From Candidatus Fermentithermobacillus carboniphilus (GTDB lineage Bacteria; Bacillota; Sulfobacillia; Fermentithermobacillales; Fermentithermobacillaceae), in contig CP062796.1 of the NCBI GenBank assembly GCA_018208355.1, positions 1,982,517 through 2,046,516 on the forward strand: a stretch of 64,000 nt of DNA. The letters are read 5' to 3'. The translations under genes were made by a program, and so were the position numbers. Below, piece after piece: positions 1-12,808 of the stretch (its first letter is position 1; each line of letters opens with the position of its first letter). The notes beneath the pieces are model-generated. The model was given only the letters and a program-made list of their open reading frames with translations, searched no databases and had not been told where the DNA came from.

Positions 1-554
1 CAACTGTGGAGATTTCGTCGCCTTTGAATGTCGCCTTCCTCTTTTTAGGTATTGCGCTCCCGTACCTTATATCCTCGCTGACCATTGGTTCGACTGCGAA
101 GACTGCTCTTCAAATGGTAGATGAGGTAAGGCGGCAGTTCAACAGCATCCCGGGGATAATGGAAGGCAAGGCGAAGCCCGACTACGCTGCCTGCGTGGAC
201 ATCGCCACAAGGAACGCGCTGAGGGAGATGATTTTGCCGGGTGTGGTAAGTATCGCGGTTCCAGTTGCGGTTGGCTCACTGTTTGGCGCACAGGCCCTTG
301 GAATGTTGCTTATCGGGGCAGTAGCCAGCGCGGCGCTTTTAGGCCCGTTCTTCAACAACACGGGAACCGCATTCGACAATGCCAAGAAGCTGATAGAAAA
401 CGCCGGTCGTAAGGGGACGTTCGAGCACCAGGCCGCAGTTGCCGCCGACACGATTGGCGACCCGATGAAGGACGTCGCCGGACCCTCGCTCCTCATATTC
501 ATGAAGCTGATTGGTATGGCGGCGCTGCTCATTGCCGGTACAATAGCTTTATAG
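1..554 (+). CDS. hppA: Membrane-bound ion-pumping inorganic pyrophosphatase, C-terminal part
   Basis: Only the last ~183 residues lie in the window; the frame is open to the left edge, so the GTG near the edge is internal. The protein hydrolyses cytoplasmic PPi and couples this to H+ or Na+ export across the membrane. Recognised by the C-terminal family pattern: hydrophobic helices, the acidic/lysine motif FDNAKKLIE around residue 118, and GDPMKDVAGPSL about 20 residues before the end, followed by a last helix. The residues that decide K+ dependence and Na+ versus H+ specificity lie upstream, so neither can be called. In anaerobes this pump recovers energy from biosynthetic PPi. A strong hairpin follows about 100 bases downstream. 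Confidence 0.93.
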   Translation, partial: TVEISSPLNVAFLFLGIALPYLISSLTIGSTAKTALQMVDEVRRQFNSIPGIMEGKAKPDYAACVDIATRNALREMILPGVVSIAVPVAVGSLFGAQALGMLLIGAVASAALLGPFFNNTGTAFDNAKKLIENAGRKGTFEHQAAVAADTIGDPMKDVAGPSLLIFMKLIGMAALLIAGTIAL

Positions 555-555
555 C

Positions 556-616
556 TTTACGGTAGAGTTTTACCTGACGGGAAGGGTTTTACGGTACAAG
601 TTTCACGGTAACGGTA
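556..616. repeat. Clustered ACGGTA repeats after hppA
   Basis: The hexamer ACGGTA occurs four times within about 60 bases (starting at 559, 591, 605 and 611); the first two are part of an identical TTTACGGTA spaced 32 bases apart. The cluster lies between the pyrophosphatase stop codon and its terminator. It could be a protein-binding array or chance repetition in a non-coding spacer. Confidence 0.4.
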
Positions 617-650
617 CCGCGATATCGATCCGGATCTGTCAGCCGAGATA

Positions 651-676
651 CGTGCCGCCCGCTTTCGGGCGGCACG
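651..676 (+). terminator. Hairpin terminator after hppA
   Basis: A perfect 10-bp stem CGTGCCGCCC/GGGCGGCACG closes a six-base GCTTTC loop. The downstream tract is only moderately T-rich, so termination efficiency is uncertain, but position and stem strength fit the end of the pyrophosphatase transcript. Confidence 0.7.
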
Positions 677-1011
677 ACCGTTTGCTCACTACAAGTCAGC
701 GAACGGGGTCTTAAAGTCTTTAAGCAGATACGCCATTTTGCCCTTCTTCCTATAGAAATTAAATACAGATCCTGATCTGCGAAACCTCTGCTATGGAGGG
801 CAGACTTATTGCCTAATTATGCAATGATGTTGTAAACTCTAACAAATCGAGGCGCATGGGTATTATTCTGATGCGTTTGACGTGCTTGATGACGCGAACA
901 TGCTGAGAAAGTATGTGATTTCCACTGCTCAGTACGCTCGGTTGCCAAGAATGGTCAATTCAGAAAGGGGGTGGTAAGTGGACGATAAGTGGTTAGGAGG
1001 GGGTGGAGAAG
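677..1011. other. Non-coding spacer before the peptide-transport block
   Basis: No convincing gene here. It must hold the promoter of the long transporter block, but no good -35/-10 pair stands out; TTGCCT at 809 followed by a TGTAAAC-like element is the best weak candidate. It also has a small dyad TTGC-N8-GCAA at 809-824. Confidence 0.4.
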
Positions 1012-1089
1012 TTGTCACCACTAAAATTCCGCGGTGAATGGAATGGGTTGCCACAGTGGTCGTTTCCCATGGTTGCCTCGAGAAGATAA
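1012..1089 (+). CDS. Possible 25-residue leader peptide
   Basis: A TTG codon five bases after an AGGAGGGGGTGG tract (996-1007) opens a 25-codon frame ending in TAA 22 bases before the binding-protein start. The peptide is basic at its end and has three Trp residues (EWNGLPQW, then SFP). An unusually strong ribosome binding site in front of an otherwise unexplained short frame suggests a translated leader that could couple to or attenuate the transporter genes. There is no homology evidence; the strong purine tract could also be coincidental. Confidence 0.25.
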   Translation: MSPLKFRGEWNGLPQWSFPMVASRR

Positions 1090-1111
1090 AGGAAAAGGAG
1101 GAGATATCGGA

Positions 1112-2674
1112 GTGAGGAAATACGTATCTATCTTTGTAGCTTTGGTGGTTGCCGCAAGCATGCTTGCAGGATGTGCGCAAAACTCGACGCCGAGGCCCAA
1201 GGAAGGGGGTACGCTCATAGTCTCTCATCAGGATGACCCCATAAGTTTCAATCCCGACTGGAAGACGGATGATTATGCGTACCCCATAAACCAGAACATA
1301 TTCAACAAACTAGTAACCTTGGACCCCAGATATAATATTGTACCCGATCTCGCCACCAAGTGGGAAGTTTCTCCCGACGGTAAGACTTATACTTTCTACC
1401 TTGCCAAGAATGTCAAGTGGCATGATGGGACGAAATTCACTTCGCAGGACGTGAAGTGGACGTTTGACACGATCATTCAAAAGAAAGGCACCGCGTACAA
1501 CAACCTGCAGGCGGTGGAATCCATCGAATGCCCGGATGACTACACCGTGGTGTTCAAGCTGAAGCAGCCCTATTCTGCCTTCCTCGGCTTTTTGGCATGG
1601 TACGGCACTTTTGTAATGCCTAAACACGTCTATGAAGGAACTGACTGGACTACCAACCCTGCTAACCAGAAACCTATCGGGACGGGGCCATTCAAATTTG
1701 TGGAGTGGGTTAAAGGAGACCACGTTACTCTTGAGAAGAACCCAGATTATTTCAAAGGAGCGCCTCACCTCGACAAGGTGGTCTTCAGGATCATCCCGGA
1801 CGCCAATACTGCGCTCCAGGCTTTCCTCAATAACGAAGTCGACGTAGCGGGCGTAAGGCCGCCGCTTTCGGAAGTAGGCAAGCTCGAGAAGACCGACGGG
1901 GTCAAGGTAATCAAGTTTGCCGCTCCGAGCAGGTACTACATTGCCTTCAACATGAGGAAGGCACCCTGGAACAACTTGGATGTGAGAAAGGCAATTGCCC
2001 TTGCTGTCAACAGGCAGGAGATCGTGGACAAGGCCCTTAAAGGACTGGGCCAGGCTGCCAAAGGATTTTACACGCCGGCTATCGCGTGGGCCTATAACGA
2101 TAAAGACGTCCTGCCGGAAAGGAATCTCCAAGAAGCAAACCGTCTCCTGGATGCCGCCGGGCTAAAGCCCAATGCCGAAGGGATCAGGCTTAAGATAGAC
2201 CTGCCATACTTCCAGGGATCTGAATGGGCTGATATGGCTACGGTTATCAAGGCTAACCTCAAAGAAGTCGGTATCGACGTAAACCTCCAGCAGCTTGAAA
2301 TAGCCGCGTGGATGCAAAAGGTCCTCACCGATCACGACTTTGACATCACAATCCTCAACGGTTTCCAGGGTCCGGATCCCGATAACCTCCGGCTGCGCGT
2401 CGGGAGTAACGGCAACTTGCAGATGATGGGGTACAGCAATGCCGAGGTAGATAAGCTCCTTGACGAAGCCTCGCAACTCACCAAGGTAGAAGAGCGAGCG
2501 CCGAAGTACAAAGATGTCCAGCGAATACTCTCCCAAGAACTCCCCATCGTCCCTCTCGCTGAAGTCACCAGCATTTATGTATTCAAGAGTTATGTGCACG
2601 GGATGCCTGTGGAAGACGGCATAGGTAAGGTGACATTCTCGGACTATAGCCTGGTGTGGCTGGATAAGAAATAG
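1112..2674 (+). CDS. ABC transporter peptide-binding lipoprotein (SBP family 5)
   Basis: Extracytoplasmic solute-binding lipoprotein of ~520 residues that captures oligo- or dipeptides for the adjacent permeases. The GTG start is chosen because GGAAAAGGAGGAG sits just upstream and it opens directly into a lipoprotein signal: basic VRK, a hydrophobic stretch, then lipobox LAGC with the modified Cys near residue 21. The body carries family-5 patterns such as the LAPSL-like early segment VPDLATKWEVSPDGKTY and NPDYFKGAPHLDKV in the mid region, and GTGPFKFVEW. First gene of a dense block with two permeases, two ATPases and hydrolases, so the ligand is probably a peptide or amide that those enzymes cut. 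Exact ligand unknown. Confidence 0.93.
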   Translation: MRKYVSIFVALVVAASMLAGCAQNSTPRPKEGGTLIVSHQDDPISFNPDWKTDDYAYPINQNIFNKLVTLDPRYNIVPDLATKWEVSPDGKTYTFYLAKNVKWHDGTKFTSQDVKWTFDTIIQKKGTAYNNLQAVESIECPDDYTVVFKLKQPYSAFLGFLAWYGTFVMPKHVYEGTDWTTNPANQKPIGTGPFKFVEWVKGDHVTLEKNPDYFKGAPHLDKVVFRIIPDANTALQAFLNNEVDVAGVRPPLSEVGKLEKTDGVKVIKFAAPSRYYIAFNMRKAPWNNLDVRKAIALAVNRQEIVDKALKGLGQAAKGFYTPAIAWAYNDKDVLPERNLQEANRLLDAAGLKPNAEGIRLKIDLPYFQGSEWADMATVIKANLKEVGIDVNLQQLEIAAWMQKVLTDHDFDITILNGFQGPDPDNLRLRVGSNGNLQMMGYSNAEVDKLLDEASQLTKVEERAPKYKDVQRILSQELPIVPLAEVTSIYVFKSYVHGMPVEDGIGKVTFSDYSLVWLDKK

Positions 2675-2685
2675 ACCGCAAATAT

Positions 2686-2738
2686 CCCCAGGGGCTTGAT
2701 GACTCGGGAGGTTAGCATCTCTCGAATCCCCCCTGGGG
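2686..2738 (+). terminator. Intercistronic hairpin between binding protein and permease
   Basis: The arms CCCCAGGGG and CCCCTGGGG enclose a second imperfect stem (GACTCGGGAG with CTCTCGAATC). No T-run follows, and the next gene starts 38 bases on. Such hairpins after binding-protein genes usually protect the upstream message or cause partial termination, giving more binding protein than permease. Confidence 0.6.
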
Positions 2739-2776
2739 GTCCCACGCATCTTCCATCGATCTTGGAGGGATTTTTC

Positions 2777-3742
2777 ATGGGACGTTATCTTCTCAAAAAG
2801 GCAGGAGCTGCGGTCCTTACAATAATTTTCGTCCTAGTGCTCAACTTTTTCATAATCCACATTGCGCCAGGCGATCCTGCGAGGATACTATCAGGACTGG
2901 ACAATCCCTCCCCCGAAGTGATACAGACGCTGAGAGAAAAATACGGACTAGATAAGCCACTCCAAGTGCAGCTAGTGACATATTTCAAGCGGGTCATTAA
3001 GGGAGACTTGGGCCATTCGATCGTATATGACCGCCCAGTTTGGACATTGATCAAAGAAAGATTGGGTGCTACCTTGCTCCTGACGTTCACCAGTGCCATC
3101 ATCGCTTTCGTCCTGGGCAGTTTGTTAGGGGCATATTCAGCGACGAGGCAAGGCTCAAAGGTCGACGCGGCTTTGTCTTTCGTGGCGTACCTTCTGTACT
3201 CCATGCCATCATTCTGGTTGGGCCTTATGCTTATCCTGGTCTTCGCTTCTTGGCTTAAGATCTTGCCAACTTCTGGTATGGTTAATCTGCGGGCCCCGAG
3301 CACGGGAATCCTTCATTACCTTGATGTATTTTGGCATCTCATTCTTCCCGCTACGACTCTGTCGTTGGTTCAGATTCCAGCATATTACAGGATTACTCGT
3401 TCTTCTGTATCCGGTGTGCTCAAAGAGGATTTCATCACCATGTTCAGGGCTTCGGGAATGGACGAGCGGAAGATATTCAGGAAATATGCCTTCAAGAATG
3501 CCATACTCCCTACCGTCACGGTATTCGGACTCCACCTGGCGTACGTGGTTACTGGTGCTGCCCTAGTTGAAATCGTCTTTGCTTGGCCTGGGATGGGTCG
3601 CCTCATGCTGGGGGCCATTTACAGGCGAGATTATCCGTTGCTGATGGGGATCTACCTCATCATGTCCCTCTCGGTGGCCGTTACCATGATCGTAGTCGAC
3701 ATCCTGTACGCCGTGCTGGATCCGAGAATTCGCTATACCTAG
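2777..3742 (+). CDS. Peptide ABC transporter permease, DppB/OppB type
   Basis: Inner-membrane permease subunit of ~321 residues and about six helices, forming the translocation channel with the next gene. The ATG is chosen over a longer frame because GGAGGG lies eight bases upstream and the protein then begins with the usual MGRYLLKK-hydrophobic segment followed by FFIIHIAPGDPARIL, typical of DppB proteins. The cytoplasmic EAA loop is visible as ASGMDERKIFRKYAFKNAILP around residues 225-245, which docks onto the ATPases. It sits between the binding protein and the second permease with short spacers, in operon order A-B-C-D-F. Confidence 0.95.
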   Translation: MGRYLLKKAGAAVLTIIFVLVLNFFIIHIAPGDPARILSGLDNPSPEVIQTLREKYGLDKPLQVQLVTYFKRVIKGDLGHSIVYDRPVWTLIKERLGATLLLTFTSAIIAFVLGSLLGAYSATRQGSKVDAALSFVAYLLYSMPSFWLGLMLILVFASWLKILPTSGMVNLRAPSTGILHYLDVFWHLILPATTLSLVQIPAYYRITRSSVSGVLKEDFITMFRASGMDERKIFRKYAFKNAILPTVTVFGLHLAYVVTGAALVEIVFAWPGMGRLMLGAIYRRDYPLLMGIYLIMSLSVAVTMIVVDILYAVLDPRIRYT

Positions 3743-3754
3743 GAGGTGGCCACG

Positions 3755-4627
3755 ATGGACGAAAACGCTGCTAGAGCACGCTTTACCCGGAGCCTGAAAG
3801 AATTCTGGATGGCGTACTCTTCGCAAAAACAGGCAGTGGCTGGACTTTTAATATTGCTCCTGGTTGTTGCCGTAGCATTCCTTGCGCCGTACATTTCTCC
3901 TTATGATCCAAACTATCTGGGAGACACTCTCATGGAAGCCCCCGGTAGGCAACATCTGCTTGGTACCGACGGAATGGGTAGAGACGTATTCAGCATGATA
4001 CTCCACGGAACCAGGGTTTCTCTTTTGGTGGGCGTTATCTCTGCGTTACTCTCGGGCATGATAGGCACACTCGTGGGGGGCATCTCGGGATTTTTCGGAG
4101 GAACTGTAGATGCGGTGATATCGGAGATCATCGATATCTTCCTGATGCTGCCGACTTTTTTCCTTATCCTCATCATTGTCGCTATGTTCGGCAGCAGCAT
4201 GCTCAACGTCATGATCGTGATCGGCCTCACCAGCTGGCCCGGTAATGCGAGGCTAATGAGAGCTCAGGCCCTATCGCTCAGAGAAAGGACCTTCGTTATC
4301 GGGGCGAAAGTGATAGGAGAGTCAAGGGGGAGCATACTCTTCAGATACATCATTCCTAATGGCATTTTCCCCGTAATCGCCAACACCACGATGCAAGTTG
4401 CCAGCGCGATTCTCACGGAGGCAGGGTTAAGTTTTCTTGGACTGGGTGACCCGAACGTGGTGAGCTGGGGCCGCCTGATCTACGATGGAAGGGCTTATTT
4501 GACGTCCGCCTGGTGGATCTCCACGTTTGCGGGGATGGCCATAGTAGTGACTGTGATGGGTTTTTACCTGATTGGTGACGGGCTCAACCGCGTACTAAAT
4601 CCCAAGCTCAGAGACGAGAGACAGTGA
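3755..4627 (+). CDS. Peptide ABC transporter permease, DppC/OppC type
   Basis: Second channel-forming permease, ~290 residues. AGGAGGTGG ends five bases before the selected ATG. The N-terminus has the DppC pattern (SLKEFWMAYSSQKQAVAG then a helix and LAPYISPYDPNY, followed by HLLGTDGMGRDVFS). The EAA loop reads AKVIGESRGSILFRYIIPN near residues 180-200, and AGLSFLGLGDPNVVSWG is a standard late signature. It overlaps the next frame by four bases if that gene starts at its earliest GTG, indicating tight translational coupling. Confidence 0.95.
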   Translation: MDENAARARFTRSLKEFWMAYSSQKQAVAGLLILLLVVAVAFLAPYISPYDPNYLGDTLMEAPGRQHLLGTDGMGRDVFSMILHGTRVSLLVGVISALLSGMIGTLVGGISGFFGGTVDAVISEIIDIFLMLPTFFLILIIVAMFGSSMLNVMIVIGLTSWPGNARLMRAQALSLRERTFVIGAKVIGESRGSILFRYIIPNGIFPVIANTTMQVASAILTEAGLSFLGLGDPNVVSWGRLIYDGRAYLTSAWWISTFAGMAIVVTVMGFYLIGDGLNRVLNPKLRDERQ

Positions 4628-4650
4628 AGCGAAGGGAGGGTGTTTTCCGG

Positions 4651-5757
4651 GTGGTCGCGACCCAACAGACTAATGAAAACAACCAATGCGAGGAAAGCGG
4701 AGGCAGGCCTCTCCTGGAGATACTTGACCTCTCAGTGGGCTACGAGACGGGGTCGGGCTTAGTCCGCGCTGTGGACCATGTGGATCTGTCCCTCTACGCA
4801 GGTGAGTCTTTGGGGATAGTTGGAGAATCCGGTTCTGGAAAGTCCACCTTGGTCATGTCGGTGCTGAGGCTCTTGCCGCTCGATAAGACGGTCGTTACTG
4901 GTACGGTCCTCTTCAATGGAGTCGATATACTCCGGTGTCCACAGCAAGAGATGGCCAGAATCCGATGGAAAGAGATCTCGATAGTATTTCAGAAATCGAT
5001 GAACTCTCTAAGTCCGGTTCACAAAGTGTGGGAGCAGGTAGAGGACATTTACCGGGTTCACGCACCGGGGGCGAGCAAGGATGAGATACGGGAACGGATA
5101 CTCCATCTGTTCAACGTCGTCAATCTTTCGCCCCGGGTGCTTGAACTGTATCCACACGAGCTCTCCGGGGGGATGCTTCAGAGGGTCTGCATTGCGCTAA
5201 GCTTGGTCCATCTGCCCAAACTCGTGATCTTCGACGAAGCAACTACTGCTTTGGATGTCATCACCCAGGGTCAAATATTGGACGAAGTGATGAGACTGGA
5301 ACGGGAGCTGAAACTAACCAGCATAATCGTGACCCACGACATATCTGTGGTCGCTAAGACGTGTAAGCGTGTTGCGGTGATGTATGCCGGACGTCTTATG
5401 GAAGTTGGCGATGTCGGAACTGTACTGGTGGAACCGCTCCATCCTTACACGAAGGGACTTATCAGTTCTTTCCCGCCTCTCACGGGGACGCGCAAAAAGA
5501 TAACGGGGATTCCGGGTGCGCTGCCCGATCTCAAGGCGCCTCCTCCGGGGTGTATTTTTGCTCCACGATGTCCGGAAGCCTTGAAGGTATGTAAAGAAAA
5601 ATCTCCTGTGCCCACAGTGGTATCTCGCGATGGGGAAGAGCATCTGAAAGATGTAAAGTTCGGGCCGGGCGAATCGGCTGGCTTACGTAATATCCAGGTT
5701 CCTCCGATAGGCGCTCACGTAGTGGCCTGCCACAAATACGGGGGTGATGATGCATGA
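4651..5757 (+). CDS. Peptide ABC transporter ATPase, DppD/OppD type
   Basis: Cytoplasmic nucleotide-binding subunit of ~368 residues. Walker A is GESGSGKST, the ABC signature is LSGGMLQR, Walker B is LVIFDEATTALD and the switch histidine lies in IVTHDISVV. The C-terminal oligopeptide-transporter extension carries the expected cysteine cluster (GCIFAPRCPEALKVC). The GTG used here follows GAAGGGAGGG at good distance; an alternative GTG at 4624 would overlap the permease stop. The insert KKITGIPGALPDLKAPPPG is also standard. It pairs with the next gene as a heterodimer. Confidence 0.94.
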   Translation: MVATQQTNENNQCEESGGRPLLEILDLSVGYETGSGLVRAVDHVDLSLYAGESLGIVGESGSGKSTLVMSVLRLLPLDKTVVTGTVLFNGVDILRCPQQEMARIRWKEISIVFQKSMNSLSPVHKVWEQVEDIYRVHAPGASKDEIRERILHLFNVVNLSPRVLELYPHELSGGMLQRVCIALSLVHLPKLVIFDEATTALDVITQGQILDEVMRLERELKLTSIIVTHDISVVAKTCKRVAVMYAGRLMEVGDVGTVLVEPLHPYTKGLISSFPPLTGTRKKITGIPGALPDLKAPPPGCIFAPRCPEALKVCKEKSPVPTVVSRDGEEHLKDVKFGPGESAGLRNIQVPPIGAHVVACHKYGGDDA

Positions 5758-6779
5758 GCGGTACAGGTACGTCTTCTCGGCCAACCGGACACGAAGAAGT
5801 GCTTTCGGCGGTTGAAATACAAAAGTGGTATCCCGCCCGGAGGCAGATTCTAAGGCTAGGCCATAAAGACGGAGGTACTTTTGTGAAAGCCGTCGACGGC
5901 GTCAATTTTTCCCTCAGGAAAGGCGAGATTTTGGGAGTAATCGGCGAGAGCGGCTGCGGAAAGTCGACTATGGGAAAGTTACTCGTGGGACTCGAGGTCC
6001 CTACGGGCGGCAAAATATACTTTCAGGGGCAGGAAGCGACGAGTCTTTTGAAAGGCGATGCCAAAGCTTTCCGTCGAAAGGCACAGATCGTGTTCCAGAA
6101 CCCCTTTGATACCTTCGACCCGAGACACAACATAGCCAGCATACTGTCGACGCCTCTCAAGATACACGGTATAGGTAGTTCGGACTCCGAACGCAAAGAG
6201 ATCTGCTGCCAGGCCCTGGAACAAGCAGGACTTCGCCCCGCTCGAGAGTACCTCTTCAGGTTTCCCCACGAATTGAGCGGCGGCCAGCTTCAGAGGGTCT
6301 CAATTGTGAGAGCGATGCTTCTCAAGCCCCTTTTCCTGGTGGCGGATGAGCCCGTCTCGATGCTTGATGTGTCGGTCAGGGCGGACATACTTAATGCTCT
6401 CCTCCAGCTCTCTGAGGAAAGCTCCACGGCTATCGTATTCATTAGCCACGACATATCGGTCACCAGGTATATATCCCACCGCATTGCAGTCATGTATCTA
6501 GGGAGAATCGTTGAGATCGGAGACGCAGACGAGATCATATCTCATCCATGTCATCCCTATACCCGAGCCTTGATCTCCAATTTCCCGTCAGCGGACCCAC
6601 GAGAAGCAAGAGAAGGGATTCAGATCCAGGGTGAGCCGCCTACACCCGTAAACCCTGGTCCCGGTTGTTACTTTGCGCCTAGATGTTTTATGACGAGTGA
6701 AGAATGTCTCCATTCGTATCCCGAGGAGGTTGATCTAGGCGGGGGCCACCTGGTGTGGTGCCATATGGTTCAACGATGA
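5754..6779 (+). CDS. Peptide ABC transporter ATPase, DppF/OppF type
   Basis: Second nucleotide-binding subunit, 341 residues, whose ATG overlaps the previous stop in ATGA. It has Walker A GESGCGKST, signature LSGGQLQRVS, Walker B FLVADEPVSMLD and the switch region FISHDISVTRY. The C-terminal segment has GCYFAPRCFMTSEEC, the cysteine cluster of this subfamily. The transporter ends here; an 84-base spacer with a fresh AAAGGGGG site precedes the hydrolase genes, which are probably on the same transcript because no terminator is seen. Confidence 0.95.
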   Translation: MSGTGTSSRPTGHEEVLSAVEIQKWYPARRQILRLGHKDGGTFVKAVDGVNFSLRKGEILGVIGESGCGKSTMGKLLVGLEVPTGGKIYFQGQEATSLLKGDAKAFRRKAQIVFQNPFDTFDPRHNIASILSTPLKIHGIGSSDSERKEICCQALEQAGLRPAREYLFRFPHELSGGQLQRVSIVRAMLLKPLFLVADEPVSMLDVSVRADILNALLQLSEESSTAIVFISHDISVTRYISHRIAVMYLGRIVEIGDADEIISHPCHPYTRALISNFPSADPREAREGIQIQGEPPTPVNPGPGCYFAPRCFMTSEECLHSYPEEVDLGGGHLVWCHMVQR

Positions 6780-6863
6780 GTTTGAAAGTCTGCACTGGAA
6801 TTATGCGCCGGTAAGAAGGTAGGTTTACCCGCTTGTCGGCGAAGTAAACAAAGGGGGATAAAC

Positions 6864-8264
6864 ATGAACATACAGTCCATTTTGAACGATGTTCCGGATT
6901 ATAATTACTTTTTGACCGTCGAGGAAATGGACCAGAGTTCGAGAGCCCTGGCAGCAGAATTCCCGGGGACGGTGGAGATATTCGAAGCCGGGAGGTCGCG
7001 CCAAGGACACCCCGTGCTGTGCCTCAAAATAGGGAACGGACCTCTGAACGCGCTTGTCTTCGGTTGTCCCCATCCTAACGAGCCAATCGGGGCTATGATG
7101 CTGGAGTATTTTTCTAGGAGACTTGCTGTCGACACAAAACTCAGAGAAGAACTCGGGTTCACCTGGTACATAGTAAAATGCTCCGATCCTGATGGTACTA
7201 AGCTTAACGAGGGCTGGTTCCGAGGTCCTTTCACGCCTTTCAACTACTCGAGGAATTTCTTCCGACCTGCTTCACATCAGCAGGTTGAATGGACGTTCCC
7301 GATAACATATAAGAGGCTCAACTTTCAGAGTCCTATCCCCGAGACCAAGGCGTTGATGAATATAATTGATTCGGCAAGGCCGGATTTGATTTACTCGCTT
7401 CATAACGCAGGTTTTGGCGGAGCGTACTGGTACATCTCCGACCCCGCTCCCGAACTTTACGACCAGTTTCGGTCCTTCGCAGCGCTCAACAATGTGCCTC
7501 TCAGTTTGGGAGAGCCCGAAATGCCGTATGCCGAGAAGTTTGCTGAGGCGGTCTACAGGATGCCTAATTCGAGAGACACTTATGACTACTACGAAAAATT
7601 TACCGACGATGATCCAGCAGCTTTGATTACGGCAGGGACGTCAAGTATCGATTACGCTAAGTCACAGAAGCCCGATACATTTGGTATCGTATGTAAGGTA
7701 CCTTATTTCTACGACCCAAGAATAGAAAATACATCTCCTTCCGACATGGTACGCAAAGATGCCATCCTGAAATCGTGCGATGTTTCTGAAAAGGTTTACG
7801 GGTTTGCGGATGAGAAGATGGTTCTTATCAAAGGGCACTTGTCCCAGGGCAATCCGTTCCGTGTCACACTGGAAAACTTCCTATCTAACGGCCCCAAGGG
7901 GTTGAAGGCAAAGAGGCGTTGGGCCGAAACGAGTCCCGAGTGCCAGGAAAAAGCGACGGTGGCTGAGAAGTTCGATAATCTCCAGGTGTCACGGTTTTAC
8001 AATATGCTGATCCTGGGGCTCCTCTTGCGGGCTGCAGAGTATGAACTGAAAAATCTGGAAGGACAAGCCGTTACATCGCAAGCTTATCCTCTACTTGAGC
8101 GTGTCAAAGAAGAGGCTTTGCAAGAACTCCACGCATGGAATGCCGAACTCGAAAAAGACCTCGATTACAGCGTGATACCTATCAAAAGCCTTGTGGGGGT
8201 CCAGCTAGGTAGTGCGCTGGCGGCAGCCCTGTACGTGAAGACGTCCAGGACCGGCGGGCACTAG
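6864..8264 (+). CDS. M14-family zinc carboxypeptidase-like protein
   Basis: Probable cytoplasmic zinc hydrolase of 466 residues with no signal peptide. The HxxE zinc motif is present as GCPHPNEPIGAMM near residue 70 and the third ligand is probably His in IYSLHNAGFGGAYWY near residue 175. The segment SRNFFRPASHQQVEWTFP and the arginine-bearing WFRGPFTPFNYSR resemble substrate-binding parts of the family. It is longer than classical carboxypeptidases and has an extra C-terminal helical region. Its place directly after a peptide importer suggests it trims an imported peptide or a gamma-glutamyl or N-acyl amino acid. The exact subfamily and substrate are not recognisable by eye. Confidence 0.82.
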   Translation: MNIQSILNDVPDYNYFLTVEEMDQSSRALAAEFPGTVEIFEAGRSRQGHPVLCLKIGNGPLNALVFGCPHPNEPIGAMMLEYFSRRLAVDTKLREELGFTWYIVKCSDPDGTKLNEGWFRGPFTPFNYSRNFFRPASHQQVEWTFPITYKRLNFQSPIPETKALMNIIDSARPDLIYSLHNAGFGGAYWYISDPAPELYDQFRSFAALNNVPLSLGEPEMPYAEKFAEAVYRMPNSRDTYDYYEKFTDDDPAALITAGTSSIDYAKSQKPDTFGIVCKVPYFYDPRIENTSPSDMVRKDAILKSCDVSEKVYGFADEKMVLIKGHLSQGNPFRVTLENFLSNGPKGLKAKRRWAETSPECQEKATVAEKFDNLQVSRFYNMLILGLLLRAAEYELKNLEGQAVTSQAYPLLERVKEEALQELHAWNAELEKDLDYSVIPIKSLVGVQLGSALAAALYVKTSRTGGH

Positions 8265-8306
8265 GCCGCAAAGACCCTCGCGAAAATGAAGGGAGGAGAT
8301 TCCTGA

Positions 8307-9506
8307 GTGTACGCAGTCGTAGGTGCCAGGATTCACACAGCTGGTCCGAAGGGGATACTCGAGGATGCAGCCATTATTGTGCAGTATGGCAAGATTGTGG
8401 ATGTGACACCGGGGAGATCCGTGCCCGTGGGCTGTGAGGTTATCGATGCGACGGGTAAGGAAATTGTGCCTGGCTTCATCGATGCTCATAGCCACGCCGG
8501 GATGGAGAGTGAGGGTCTCACGGTGCTGGATGCCAATGAGTCAACAGACCCGGTGAACCCGCACCTCTGGGCGCTCGATGCTTTTAACCCGGTTGAAAAG
8601 GGATTAGCCCGGTGCGTAGCGGGCGGAGTCACTACCATAGGGCTTCTTCCTGGAAGCCCTATGTCCTTCGGCGGGCTTGTGGAGCAGATAGGGGTCGTCG
8701 AAGGGATGGGGTCTGCGATAAAAACCGTGACGAAGAACGGCCAACCCCAAATCTTGAGGGAGCGGGCGGGACTTAAGATGGCCCTCGGCGAGCACCCCAA
8801 GAGATTCTTCAGAGAGTCTAAGAAAGCTCCCGCGACTAGAATGAACATCATGGCCATGATCCGCGAGGTTCTCGAAAAGGGAAGGAATGGGCAGGTCGAG
8901 CCGAAGTTCCGGAACGTGGCTGGACTCTTAAAACGGGAGTTTCCGGCCCGGATTCACGTCCACAGGGTGCAAGACATCCTCGCTGCCTTGAGACTTCAGG
9001 AGGAATACAAGTTTGACATGGTCCTGGAGCACGTCACCGAAGGATATATGGTGGCGGACATCCTCAAGGATAGAGGAGTGCCTTGTGTGGTTGGGCCGGT
9101 TCCCATGACGAGGAGGGGTTCTGAGCTCCAGAATCTCACTCTCAGTAATGCCGTCATCCTTGCACAGCGTGGCGTGAAGGTTGCCATCACGTGCGACCAC
9201 CCGACGTTCCCTGCGTGGTACCTGCCTTATCATGCGGGGATGCTGGTGCGTGAGGGCATGGGGTACGATCAAGCGTTAAAGGCTATAACGATAATTCCCG
9301 CAGAAATCCTGGGAGTTTCGGATAGGGTGGGTTCGCTTGAACCCGGCAAGGATGCGGACTTCGTGGTCTTCCAGGGGGACCCACTGGAGATAACGTCCAG
9401 AATTGAAGCGGTAGTCTCGGACGGGCGGGTTGTAGCAGGTAAACTTGACTGCATGAGCGCTGCTGCCGGAGGCACTGAGTCATGGGAAGGAAGGAGGGTC
9501 TGTTGA
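8307..9506 (+). CDS. Metal-dependent amidohydrolase, first of a tandem pair
   Basis: Imidazolonepropionase/dihydroorotase-superfamily hydrolase of 399 residues. It has the N-terminal beta-sandwich, then GFIDAHSHAG with the HxH metal pair, followed by His in ARIHVHRVQD and in VLEHVTEGY and Asp in TCDHPTF, matching the metal ligands of the TIM barrel. The C-terminus has the usual GSLEPGKDADFVVFQGDP. GGGAGGAG precedes the GTG start. The stop codon overlaps the next start by one base in TGATG. The companion is a homologue, so the two may form a hetero-oligomer or handle two related ring or amide substrates from the imported compound. Confidence 0.88.
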   Translation: MYAVVGARIHTAGPKGILEDAAIIVQYGKIVDVTPGRSVPVGCEVIDATGKEIVPGFIDAHSHAGMESEGLTVLDANESTDPVNPHLWALDAFNPVEKGLARCVAGGVTTIGLLPGSPMSFGGLVEQIGVVEGMGSAIKTVTKNGQPQILRERAGLKMALGEHPKRFFRESKKAPATRMNIMAMIREVLEKGRNGQVEPKFRNVAGLLKREFPARIHVHRVQDILAALRLQEEYKFDMVLEHVTEGYMVADILKDRGVPCVVGPVPMTRRGSELQNLTLSNAVILAQRGVKVAITCDHPTFPAWYLPYHAGMLVREGMGYDQALKAITIIPAEILGVSDRVGSLEPGKDADFVVFQGDPLEITSRIEAVVSDGRVVAGKLDCMSAAAGGTESWEGRRVC

Positions 9507-10663
9507 TGCTAGCCGTAAAGGGTGGAAAAATACTGACGGTGACCCGCGGTACTATAGATGAGGGTACTGTCCTCATAGAGAACGGCAAGTTCATCGAGGT
9601 TGGGCAAGACGTGCCGTTTCCTCCGGGAACCCAGGTGGTAGATGCTCGGGGGAAATGGGTCGTTCCAGGGTTTATCGATTGCCATTGCCACGTGGGTATA
9701 GTACCTGAGGGCTTCGATTGGGAATATTCAGACGTGAACGAGACTACCAATGCAGTTACCGGACACGTAAGGGCCATTGATGGTATCGATTTTCACGACA
9801 AAGGGTTCCAGGACGCGCTGGATGGCGGAGTAACTGCAATGATTATCCACCCGGGTAGCGCAAACGTGATATGCGGCACGGACATTGCAGTAAAGGCCGC
9901 CGGAGAAAGCATCGCTTCGCGGGTGCTGAGGGATCCTGCAGGGATGAAGATGGCCTGGACCGCAGGGGGCAGGAGAGGCCCCAGGCCTAGTAAAGACGTA
10001 CCGTATCCATCCACCAGGATGGGTGTTGCTGGTATCTTAAGACAATATCTTGTACTCACACAGGAATACCTGAAAAAACTCGAGAGTGGAGAGCAAGAAC
10101 CGGAAAAAGATCCTGCCAAGCGTTTCACCTTTGAGATCCTTGCGAAGATTCTGAAAAAAGAAATGCCGGCGCGGATCCACTCAATGACCCCTGCCGACCT
10201 GTACCCGCTTTTCAGACTGCAGGATGAATTCGGTTTTGACTTTACGGTGGACCACGGCGATGAAGCGTATCTGGTGGCATCCGAACTTTCGAGGAGGAAG
10301 GTTCCCGTGAATTACGGGCCTTTCGTTGGAGATAGGTGGATACCTATGTTTCCGAACTCACGTCCCGATGCGGCGAAGATCATGGATGATGCGGGCGTGT
10401 TGGTGTCGTTCCAGACGGACCACCCGGTTCTCAGCATAAGGGATTTACGGTTACAGGCTGCCATATGCGTGAAGTACGGCCTCTCTCCCGAACGGGCCAT
10501 AAGGATGCTGACCATTAATCCTGCTACTATTATGGGACTGGCCTCGAGGTTGGGAAGCATTGAGCCTGGAAAAGACGCCGACTTCTCAATCTTCTCTGGG
10601 GATCCTTTGATGGTTCAGTCCAGGGTAGAAGCGGTATTCATCGACGGTAAGAGGGTTAGGTGA
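9506..10663 (+). CDS. Metal-dependent amidohydrolase, second of a tandem pair
   Basis: Homologue of the preceding gene, ~385 residues. The ATG is chosen because AAGGAGGG ends seven bases upstream, although the frame is open a little further. The HxH motif appears as GFIDCHCHVG; later ligands are ARIHSMTPADL, TVDHGDEAY and FQTDHPVL, and the C-terminus is GSIEPGKDADFSIFSGDP. A notable insertion near residue 180 (ESGEQEPEKDPAKRF) separates it from its neighbour. Both copies keep their metal ligands, so this is not a decayed duplicate. The gene ends the hydrolase section; two membrane-protein genes follow after 137 bases. Confidence 0.88.
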   Translation: MLAVKGGKILTVTRGTIDEGTVLIENGKFIEVGQDVPFPPGTQVVDARGKWVVPGFIDCHCHVGIVPEGFDWEYSDVNETTNAVTGHVRAIDGIDFHDKGFQDALDGGVTAMIIHPGSANVICGTDIAVKAAGESIASRVLRDPAGMKMAWTAGGRRGPRPSKDVPYPSTRMGVAGILRQYLVLTQEYLKKLESGEQEPEKDPAKRFTFEILAKILKKEMPARIHSMTPADLYPLFRLQDEFGFDFTVDHGDEAYLVASELSRRKVPVNYGPFVGDRWIPMFPNSRPDAAKIMDDAGVLVSFQTDHPVLSIRDLRLQAAICVKYGLSPERAIRMLTINPATIMGLASRLGSIEPGKDADFSIFSGDPLMVQSRVEAVFIDGKRVR

Positions 10664-10800
10664 AAGCTGGATTTGTTCTATGTATTTGTGGATTTCATTC
10701 TGAATTGCAGGATTTTTGATGTTGAACAGCGAACTACTAGGAGCTACCGGCGGCATCAGGTGAAGAACGAAGTTTAGATCTCCAGCAAAAAGGGGGAGAG

Positions 10801-11256
10801 ATGAACTTGATTCGTGCAAGGGACATCTTGTTCATTCTGGCAGTGGTCTGCGGTATAACCTTGTTCGGCAATTGGATCGCGGTAAAGATCGATCCAATTA
10901 AGGCGCTTCCCGGGATGTTGATCTTGGGAATCATATCTTTCGTGGGATGGGGACTAAGCAAGATTATTCCCGCTAACCTGCCTCCCATCGTCTATATCTC
11001 TTTGGTCGCTATCATCTTAACTACTCCTTGGACGCCAGGGTCTGCATGGGTTCTCAGTCAAGTGAACAATGTCAATTTCCTTGCGCTTTGCACGCCGATC
11101 CTGGCTTATGCAGGAATCTCCATTGGTAAAGAACTCGACGAGTTTGCCAAGATGAGCTGGAGAATAGCCATAGTGGCCATGTTTGTGCTAGCCGGTTCAT
11201 TCCTCGGTTCGGCTATCATTGCCCAAATCATGCTCAAGATCACGGGTAAGATATAG
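10801..11256 (+). CDS. Small 4-5 TM membrane protein paired with DUF3100-like gene
   Basis: A 151-residue hydrophobic protein with about four or five helices and an internal loop PWTPGSAWVLSQVNNVNF. AAAGGGGGAG precedes the ATG. It contains YAGISIGKELDEF, a short polar motif between helices. I do not recognise a named family. It is followed after 12 bases by a DUF3100-like membrane protein, and together they resemble two-component secondary carriers in which one small and one large integral protein are encoded side by side. Inference: the pair moves a product or co-substrate of the neighbouring hydrolases. Confidence 0.75.
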   Translation: MNLIRARDILFILAVVCGITLFGNWIAVKIDPIKALPGMLILGIISFVGWGLSKIIPANLPPIVYISLVAIILTTPWTPGSAWVLSQVNNVNFLALCTPILAYAGISIGKELDEFAKMSWRIAIVAMFVLAGSFLGSAIIAQIMLKITGKI

Positions 11257-11268
11257 GAGGTGCCTGGA

Positions 11269-12111
11269 TTGGCTGCTGATAAGAGAAACCCCGGCCAGAA
11301 TGGACAGAACCAGGGTGCTCCCGCTCCTCTGAACTTTTACGATTGGAGGTTGCACCTGACTGTACTGGTTATAGTTGTTATTTCCGAACTCATCAGGACC
11401 CGCAGGTTTCAAGTCGGCCCTGGGATGGTACTGCTACTGCCGATGTTGTACGCGCTCGTCCTTGGAGTCCTGGCTACTCCCAGGTTCTTGAAAGTGGTTA
11501 ACGAGAAACAGATGCGGACAGCATCTCCTTTGATAACGATCTCGGTGATGATGCTTGTGGCGAGACTAGGAACTATCGTGGGCCCGTCTCTTAAGCAGAT
11601 TGCATCTGCGGGACTAACCTTGGTGCTGCAAGAGTTTGGGATGCTATTCTGCCCTCTTGTCGCAATGCCTATTGCGGTTGCTATCGGCATGAAACGTGAG
11701 GCGGTCGGAGGCACTTTCTCCATCTGCCGCGAAGGTGGCATAGCTGTCATCGGTCAGGTCTACGGTCTGGATAGCCCCGAGGGTAGAGGATGTCTCGGCA
11801 CTTATATCTTTGGTACCCTTTTTGGGGCTATATACATGGGACTTTTCGCCGGATTGGTCGCTTCTCTAAGGATCTTCCACCCGTGGGCTCTGGGAATGGC
11901 AACAGGTATCGGCTCGGCCAGCATGATGAGTGCTGCAGCCGGGGCAGTGGCCGCGGCTCTTCCCGAATACAGCAAGGATGTCCTGGCTTTCGCCGCAGCA
12001 AGTAACCTCCTTACCGCAGTGGACGGCGTATGGTCTGACCTGTTCCTGGCACTCCCGCTGGCTAATATCACTTACAAGTTCTGGCGCAAAGTGTTTAGGA
12101 AGAGAGACTGA
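11269..12111 (+). CDS. DUF3100-like integral membrane protein
   Basis: Integral membrane protein of ~280 residues with eight or more helices. The TTG start is set seven bases after AGGAGGT; a GTG inside that site would leave no spacing. The segment YDWRLHLTVLVIVVISELI and the following VGPGMVLLLPMLYALVLG match my memory of the DUF3100 family, which is probably a transporter family of unknown substrate. A small N-terminal hydrophilic tail (DKRNPGQNGQNQG) precedes the first helix. Its location behind a peptide importer and hydrolases suggests efflux or exchange of a breakdown product. The family name is from recall, not a search. Confidence 0.75.
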   Translation: MAADKRNPGQNGQNQGAPAPLNFYDWRLHLTVLVIVVISELIRTRRFQVGPGMVLLLPMLYALVLGVLATPRFLKVVNEKQMRTASPLITISVMMLVARLGTIVGPSLKQIASAGLTLVLQEFGMLFCPLVAMPIAVAIGMKREAVGGTFSICREGGIAVIGQVYGLDSPEGRGCLGTYIFGTLFGAIYMGLFAGLVASLRIFHPWALGMATGIGSASMMSAAAGAVAAALPEYSKDVLAFAAASNLLTAVDGVWSDLFLALPLANITYKFWRKVFRKRD

Positions 12112-12148
12112 TCGGTTTTCAAGAAAATTTCGACGATAAGATAACATC

Positions 12149-12183
12149 CCATGACCGCGGGGACTTGGCGTCCGCGGTCATGG
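12149..12183. terminator. Bidirectional terminator between DUF3100-like gene and cotJC
   Basis: A perfect 12-bp stem CCATGACCGCGG/CCGCGGTCATGG closes an 11-base loop and is followed on the plus strand by TCTTTC. It sits exactly between the two convergent transcription units. Confidence 0.75.
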
Positions 12184-12196
12184 TCTTTCAGAGACG

Positions 12197-12808
12197 TTAT
12201 GACTGTCTAAACTTGTCCGGGTCGTATCCCTTCATCTCAAACACATGCTGTCGGCTGTAATAGTCGTGGAGCAGATCGAGGACTTCACCGAACCTCTGGA
12301 AGTGGACGATTTCCCTCTGCCAAAGGAACCTGAGAGTTTCGGTTGCATCGGGATCGTCTGAGAGTTGCATAAGGTACTCATAGGTCGACCGAGCTTTTTC
12401 CTCAGCGGCCATATTTTCGTGGATGTCCGTGATTGGGTCACCTTTAGATTGGATATATGACGCCACCCAGGGTGCTCCTGATGCGTTCACGAAATACAGA
12501 GCTTTGTCGTGATCGGCATAGTACGAGTCCAAGCCCGCTCTCTTGATGTCCTCGATACTTGCGTCCCGGATGAGCTGGTACACCAGGGTGGCCACTATCT
12601 CCATGTGTGCCAGTTCCTCTGTTCCGATGTCGGTGAGGGCAGCTTTAGCCTGGGGTATTGGCATGGTGTACCGCTGAGTAAGATAACGAAGGGAAGCCGC
12701 CAACTCTCCGTCAGGGCCACCGTACTGAGTAATAACTACCTTCGCAAGTCGCGGGTTGGGGCCTCTCACCCTAGCGGGATATTCGAGGCTTTTCTGGTAC
12801 ACCCACAT
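12197..12808 (-). CDS. cotJC: Spore coat-associated manganese catalase-like protein CotJC
   Basis: A 203-residue ferritin-like four-helix protein of the manganese catalase family, known as a component of the spore inner coat in Bacillus. Typical features are the N-terminal MWVYQKSLEYPARV, TDIGTEELAHMEIVATL and AAEEKARSTYEYL, and the late REIVHFQRFGE, which supply Glu and His metal ligands. It starts with an ATG that directly abuts the stop codon of cotJB (TAGATG), with GAAGGAG upstream. It is the last gene of the three-gene cotJ cluster and ends at a bidirectional terminator. Catalase activity is plausible from the ligands but is inferred. Confidence 0.96.
   Translation of the reverse strand: MWVYQKSLEYPARVRGPNPRLAKVVITQYGGPDGELAASLRYLTQRYTMPIPQAKAALTDIGTEELAHMEIVATLVYQLIRDASIEDIKRAGLDSYYADHDKALYFVNASGAPWVASYIQSKGDPITDIHENMAAEEKARSTYEYLMQLSDDPDATETLRFLWQREIVHFQRFGEVLDLLHDYYSRQHVFEMKGYDPDKFRQS

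Follow-up and report, generated by a model that had tools for sequence, protein, structure and literature searches.

The window analyzed here, 64,000 nucleotides covering positions 1982517-2046516 of the 2.32-Mb single-contig genome (G000:C1) of a thermophile-like Bacillota, carries ten genes in the same direction (1112-12111) that bring together an Opp/Dpp-type ATP-binding cassette (ABC) importer, an atypical M14 protein, two tandem amidohydrolases (AH1 and AH2) and the membrane proteins DUF3100 and DUF3100N. This block is made of three modules, the importer with the M14 protein, the AH1/AH2 pair and the DUF3100 pair, and not of one fixed pathway. The parts are known, the way they are put together is unusual, and in relatives the pieces recur in other combinations. 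Our preferred reading, which we hold at a probability of roughly 0.55, is a nutrient-uptake locus put together from these modules, in which a peptide-like amide would be imported and hydrolyzed inside the cell and the modular DUF3100 carrier would perhaps serve the same compound. The features of the block are as follows, with domain identities given by Pfam and profile scores set against the family cut-off.

1112..2674 (+): substrate-binding lipoprotein (substrate-binding protein, SBP), SBP_bac_5, Opp/Dpp-like; PF00496, 347.6 bits against a cut-off of 32.4
2777..3742 (+): ABC permease, OppB/DppB-like (B); PF00528, PF19300
3746..4627 (+): ABC permease, OppC/DppC-like (C); PF00528, PF12911
4624..5757 (+): ABC ATPase, OppD-like (D); PF00005, PF08352; its start overlaps the stop of permease C
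5754..6779 (+): ABC ATPase, OppF/DppF-like (F); PF00005, PF08352; its start overlaps the stop of D
6864..8264 (+): atypical M14 protein (Peptidase_M14); PF00246, 45.4 bits against 21.6
8307..9506 (+): amidohydrolase AH1, COG1228-like; PF07969/PF01979
9506..10663 (+): amidohydrolase AH2; PF07969/PF01979; its ATG shares one base with the AH1 stop (TGATG)
10801..11256 (+): DUF3100N, the DUF3100 partner subunit, a membrane protein of 151 residues; adjoins DUF3100 in 20 of 20 phylum loci
11260..12111 (+): DUF3100 membrane protein, main subunit of a putative two-gene carrier; PF11299, 297.7 bits against a cut-off of 27
651..676 (no strand): 11-bp perfect inverted repeat between the block and the upstream H+-pyrophosphatase-like gene
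about 12147..12185 (no strand): strong GC stem-loop ending the block (fold of 12091-12200, -34.7 kcal/mol)

The importer and its M14 partner

The five transport genes have the full makeup of an Opp/Dpp-type importer: an SBP_bac_5 lipoprotein, two BPD permeases and two oligo_HPY ATPases. In this five-gene architecture and in all its Pfam domains the system is like the Opp, Dpp and App oligopeptide importers, but it differs from them in NCBIfam scores that stay below cut-off and in its coupling to an M14 protein and an amidohydrolase pair. The closest solved structure for the SBP is AppA (1xoc). In the NCBIfam profile comparison the SBP, the permeases and the amidohydrolases missed every equivalog cut-off, and the substrate is therefore not assignable from annotation. 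The original prediction had proposed a cyclic, gamma-linked or N-acylated compound; none of these was singled out by our results.

The partnership between importer and M14 protein becomes apparent when the neighborhoods of M14 relatives are compared. Such relatives were found in 26 of the 299 genomes sampled from the phylum, in 11 of 61 from the class and in 8 of 59 from another class, and their neighboring loci were read by tblastn. An Opp-type permease lies within 6 kb on the same strand in 27 of the 37 M14 loci, and an importer gene lies within 400 bp of M14 in 26 of them. By our own estimate from permease counts, a permease would be expected beside M14 by chance in about 2-3% of cases, because the genomes hold only so many such genes (5-31 each in the 18 M14 genomes counted). 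The gene order is not constant, and SBP-B-C-M14, SBP-M14-B-C and SBP-B-C-M14-D-F all occur, which argues for a functional link over plain inheritance of one arrangement. The importer and the M14 protein are thus a conserved partnership across the phylum. No signal peptide was seen by eye in the window M14, and it should therefore be cytoplasmic.

With the M14 zinc carboxypeptidases the window protein has in common the fold family and the HxxE...H zinc ligands (H70, E73 and H180). It differs from them as a member of an atypical subfamily with about 190 extra residues past the position of the catalytic glutamate, and by a lysine at that position. No NCBIfam profile matches it, its match to solved M14 structures is weak with none of them close, and the AlphaFold model made without an alignment has a predicted local distance difference test score (pLDDT) of 36.1. 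The lysine, Lys278 (codon AAG), stands where carboxypeptidase A has Glu270, while 21 of 21 aligned relatives have glutamate at position 278; so do all 17 rows of a second alignment, which holds partly the same relatives and includes an archaeal protein of 33% identity. As the sequence stands, with the catalytic glutamate replaced, the window M14 is not to be taken for an active carboxypeptidase. The block had been credited with three metal hydrolases; AH1 and AH2 do look catalytically complete, and the M14 protein does not. Eighty-four alignment columns are conserved in 20 or more of the 21 relatives; the window M14 deviates in just three of them (I275, K278 and N289), which lie together around the position of the catalytic glutamate. 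This clustering, which we noticed post hoc, argues for real divergence.

Two other observations concern M14 and the state of this genome. A second, more conventional-looking M14 gene (G000:C1:2131676-2136533; L297 1676-6533) appears to be broken by a mobile element that carries transposase-like and ATPase-like genes, and it adjoins the other tandem amidohydrolase pair of the genome (2137683-2140056). Elsewhere in the assembly an M20 gene (152734-154030) and a permease-like gene (about 1083890-1085376) show frameshift-like splits into two frames each, and these give a hint of assembly errors or decay.

The tandem amidohydrolases

AH1 and AH2 each have the HxH motif, the carboxylated Lys, the two His and the Asp of binuclear-type amidohydrolases, in agreement with the original prediction that both keep all their metal ligands. 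These ligands are common to the COG1228/M38 amidohydrolases (3ooq, the Arg carboxypeptidase Cc2672 and the Xaa-Pro dipeptidases). The best structural match for both proteins is 3ooq of Thermotoga maritima, and that entry names no function. AH1 and AH2 differ from the characterized members in their tandem inheritance and in scores far under the Xaa-Pro dipeptidase cut-off (NF051886; 68.3 and 70.0 bits against 500). The ergothioneine utilization profile (ErtD, NF058538) was likewise tried and rejected at 44.4 bits against a cut-off of 600.

In a maximum-likelihood tree of 63 amidohydrolase proteins, AH1 and AH2 fall in separate clades of 7 and 8 rows, each with 100/100 support, and both clades come from the same seven loci (the window, L032, L033, L152, L268, L269 and L271). 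The two genes have thus been inherited as a tandem pair. Their surroundings vary from locus to locus. The pair follows M14 in one genome (G399, L152), with no importer beside it, and it follows an importer in another (G408, L032; order BCDF-x-AH1-AH2), with no M14. The latter is a metagenome-assembled genome of Candidatus Fermentithermobacillaceae, the family of the window genome. The full set, BCDF-SBP-M14-AH-AH, is found in two genomes of another family (G251 and G335), and there the amidohydrolases are divergent and fall outside both clades. These combinations, along with the importer-M14 pairing across the phylum, support the original proposal as far as it joins import to hydrolysis, here probably intracellular.

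In G251 and G335 the first amidohydrolase lacks the metal ligands and the second is intact (L113 10692-11822, L161 8183-9313). One dead and one intact chain is in keeping with a mixed complex in which one subunit is structural, and this suggests that the two amidohydrolase chains may associate with each other.

Counting two tandem pairs and two lone genes, this amidohydrolase family has six members in the window genome. Single genes of the family in other Bacillota have mostly housekeeping neighbors and no common transport or peptidase neighbor. By eye, one row of genes in the window genome (G000:C1:1967497-1974377; L285 5497-12377) holds LD-carboxypeptidase-like, NagA-like, DUF1177-like, AroM-like and Cys/Met-metabolism-like genes around a single amidohydrolase paralogue. 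In L032, erythromycin-esterase-like genes lie on either side of the importer (508-3186 and 8404-9915); one of them sits between the ATPase and AH1, and Pfam confirms only 8404-9912.

The DUF3100 pair and the integrity of the block

DUF3100 and its partner of about 150 residues are adjacent in all 20 phylum loci, and every one of these loci has an amide hydrolase no more than 1 kb from the pair: 16 have an M20, 3 an ATZ-type amidohydrolase and 1 an asparaginase. Plasmids from proteobacteria, from a fusobacterium and from haloarchaea carry the pair as well, with neighbors that include M20 aminoacylases and an AstE/aspartoacylase-type protein. On the Psychrobacter plasmid pA53P4 both subunits are fused into one protein of 427 residues (L290 4992-6275). 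The window has the small partner and a nearby hydrolase in common with the M20-linked DUF3100 loci, but it differs from them in its reversed gene order (only G389 is alike), in the lack of an adjacent M20 and in having the importer, M14 and amidohydrolases upstream.

The nearest relative of the pair, in G389, has 84% identity in DUF3100 and 73% in the partner and the same reversed order. Its M20 gene follows DUF3100, on a second contig that starts at the DUF3100 end, and in this genome we found no M14 match and no close AH1. The window genome still has an orthologue of that M20, 74% identical, at 1,082,349, a distance of about 0.9 Mb, and this copy has no DUF3100 neighbor. In none of the relatives examined does DUF3100 lie beside an importer-M14-amidohydrolase set. 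Since DUF3100 is found with M20 and without that set in relatives, it has to be treated as a separate module. The original prediction was to be given up if relatives had hydrolases and carrier independent of the transporter; the hydrolases proved to be tied to importers, and the carrier is independent there, beside an aminoacylase-type M20 hydrolase, so the proposal that it is the exporter of this pathway is not supported. In two loci from a different genus of the class (L262, 1929-12385, and L263), an Opp-type importer lies a few kb from DUF3100, and the importer, an S9 peptidase, a lactate-racemase-like gene, DUF3100 and the partner are close together, with an M20 in L262.

As to what the pair transports, we compared it to the lysine exporter LysO, to which there is some similarity below the Pfam cut-off: DUF3100N scores 19.4 bits against a cut-off of 23.8 (PF03956), and DUF3100 has a short profile match (E 0.0015, probability 17%). 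With matches as weak as these, export is a lead only. Profile comparison detected no relation between DUF3100 and DUF3100N, and no DUF3100 relative turned up in one scan of viral contigs. The AlphaFold model of DUF3100 made without an alignment has a pLDDT of 49.6. In the open-access literature searched we found no paper that names DUF3100 or a 'tandem amidohydrolase', and none that combines zinc carboxypeptidase, oligopeptide ABC transporter and operon.

The layout of the locus bears on how far the block is one unit. That the ten genes are co-directional and have no visible internal terminator was borne out: there is no convincing one between them, and the 17 kb scanned against Rfam contain no Rfam element or riboswitch. 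A single transcript across all ten is plausible from this arrangement. The end of the block at 12111 stands as predicted, and the start moves from 1012 to about 1112, where a GTG codon is preceded by a Shine-Dalgarno sequence. The closing stem-loop is common to the block and a convergent gene (12197-12808, - strand). Genes overlap at C/D, D/F and AH1/AH2, and the gaps are 84 bp between F and M14, 42 bp between M14 and AH1 and 137 bp between AH2 and DUF3100N. This uneven spacing, with the wide gap before DUF3100N, makes the DUF3100 end the weakest link of the block.

Weighing the readings

The modular reading is not without problems. An M14 gene has no nearby importer in about a quarter of the loci, and the AH1-AH2 pair is without both importer and M14 in L033 and L268, and on the short contigs L269 and L271. 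The pair is therefore not obligately tied to the importer and M14. The SBP does not reach the level of any of the named substrate-specific equivalogs (DppA, OppA, NikA, GsiB and others), and a sequencing or assembly error behind Lys278 is possible in an assembly that shows frameshift-like splits at other genes. All of these points count against the reading we prefer.

The alternative that survives best, possible though well short of even odds, is that DUF3100 is an accidental neighbor that still works with the M20 at 1,082,349, the importer, M14 and amidohydrolases being complete without it. This would account for an M20 so similar to the DUF3100-linked one of G389 now standing alone, and for the 137-bp gap. 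However, DUF3100N is on the same strand, the gap holds no terminator and a ribosome-binding site immediately precedes the gene. Its place behind AH2 could be either a partner swap or a coincidence, which cannot be told apart by sequence alone.

We consider it unlikely that all ten genes form one dedicated pathway, as was originally proposed, with the compound imported and opened by metal hydrolases, all three of them active, and a product exported or exchanged through the DUF3100 pair. The shared direction, the lack of an internal terminator and the closing stem-loop only past DUF3100 are what such a pathway would look like, and DUF3100 pairs generally adjoin amide hydrolases, the nearest here being AH1 and AH2. 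However, the G389 pair sits with an M20 in a genome that lacks this M14 and a close AH1, DUF3100 joins the rest of the set in no relative examined, the orthologous M20 is still elsewhere in the window genome and the M14 lacks its catalytic glutamate. Recycling of peptidoglycan peptides, with murein peptides imported and cleaved by an MpaA-like M14 and the amidohydrolase pair, would be analogous to E. coli MpaA, a cytoplasmic M14 that works beside an Opp-type importer, and by eye one amidohydrolase paralogue of the genome adjoins an LD-carboxypeptidase-like gene, but with no NCBIfam match or more than a weak structural match for the M14 and no murein-specific gene within the block it is very improbable.

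In the uptake locus that we favor, the Opp/Dpp-family importer would bring a peptide-like amide compound into the cytoplasm, where the importer-linked M14 family would normally trim it. Because the window copy of M14 has lost its catalytic glutamate, the chemistry here probably rests on the two amidohydrolases. AH1 and AH2, probably as one mixed complex, would hydrolyze amide or peptide bonds in that compound or in fragments of it, and the M14 protein may serve as a partner, in binding or in structure, or be an enzyme that was inactivated recently. DUF3100 and DUF3100N would be a separate two-subunit carrier, joined here downstream of the importer-M14-amidohydrolase set; its most likely cargo is an N-acyl- or amide-type compound or an amino acid that such a compound releases.

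A broader proposal, which we put forward tentatively, is that DUF3100 and DUF3100N are an uncharacterized two-subunit carrier family across bacteria and archaea, dedicated to amide hydrolases (M20, ATZ-type, asparaginase, perhaps AstE-like and, here, AH1/AH2), whose substrates or products it would carry. It would be accompanied by importer-linked M14 proteins and paired amidohydrolases that drift to pseudo-enzymes, as may be the case for the dead M14 of the window and the dead amidohydrolase of G251 and G335.

The lost catalytic residue of the window M14 is a caution that a hydrolase gene does not always stand for an active enzyme. That an amide hydrolase accompanies DUF3100 in every one of the phylum loci suggests a carrier whose cargo is N-acyl or amide compounds. 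Together these results would give a testable role to three uncharacterized families: the importer-linked M14 proteins found across the Bacillota, the co-inherited amidohydrolase pair and the DUF3100 carrier.

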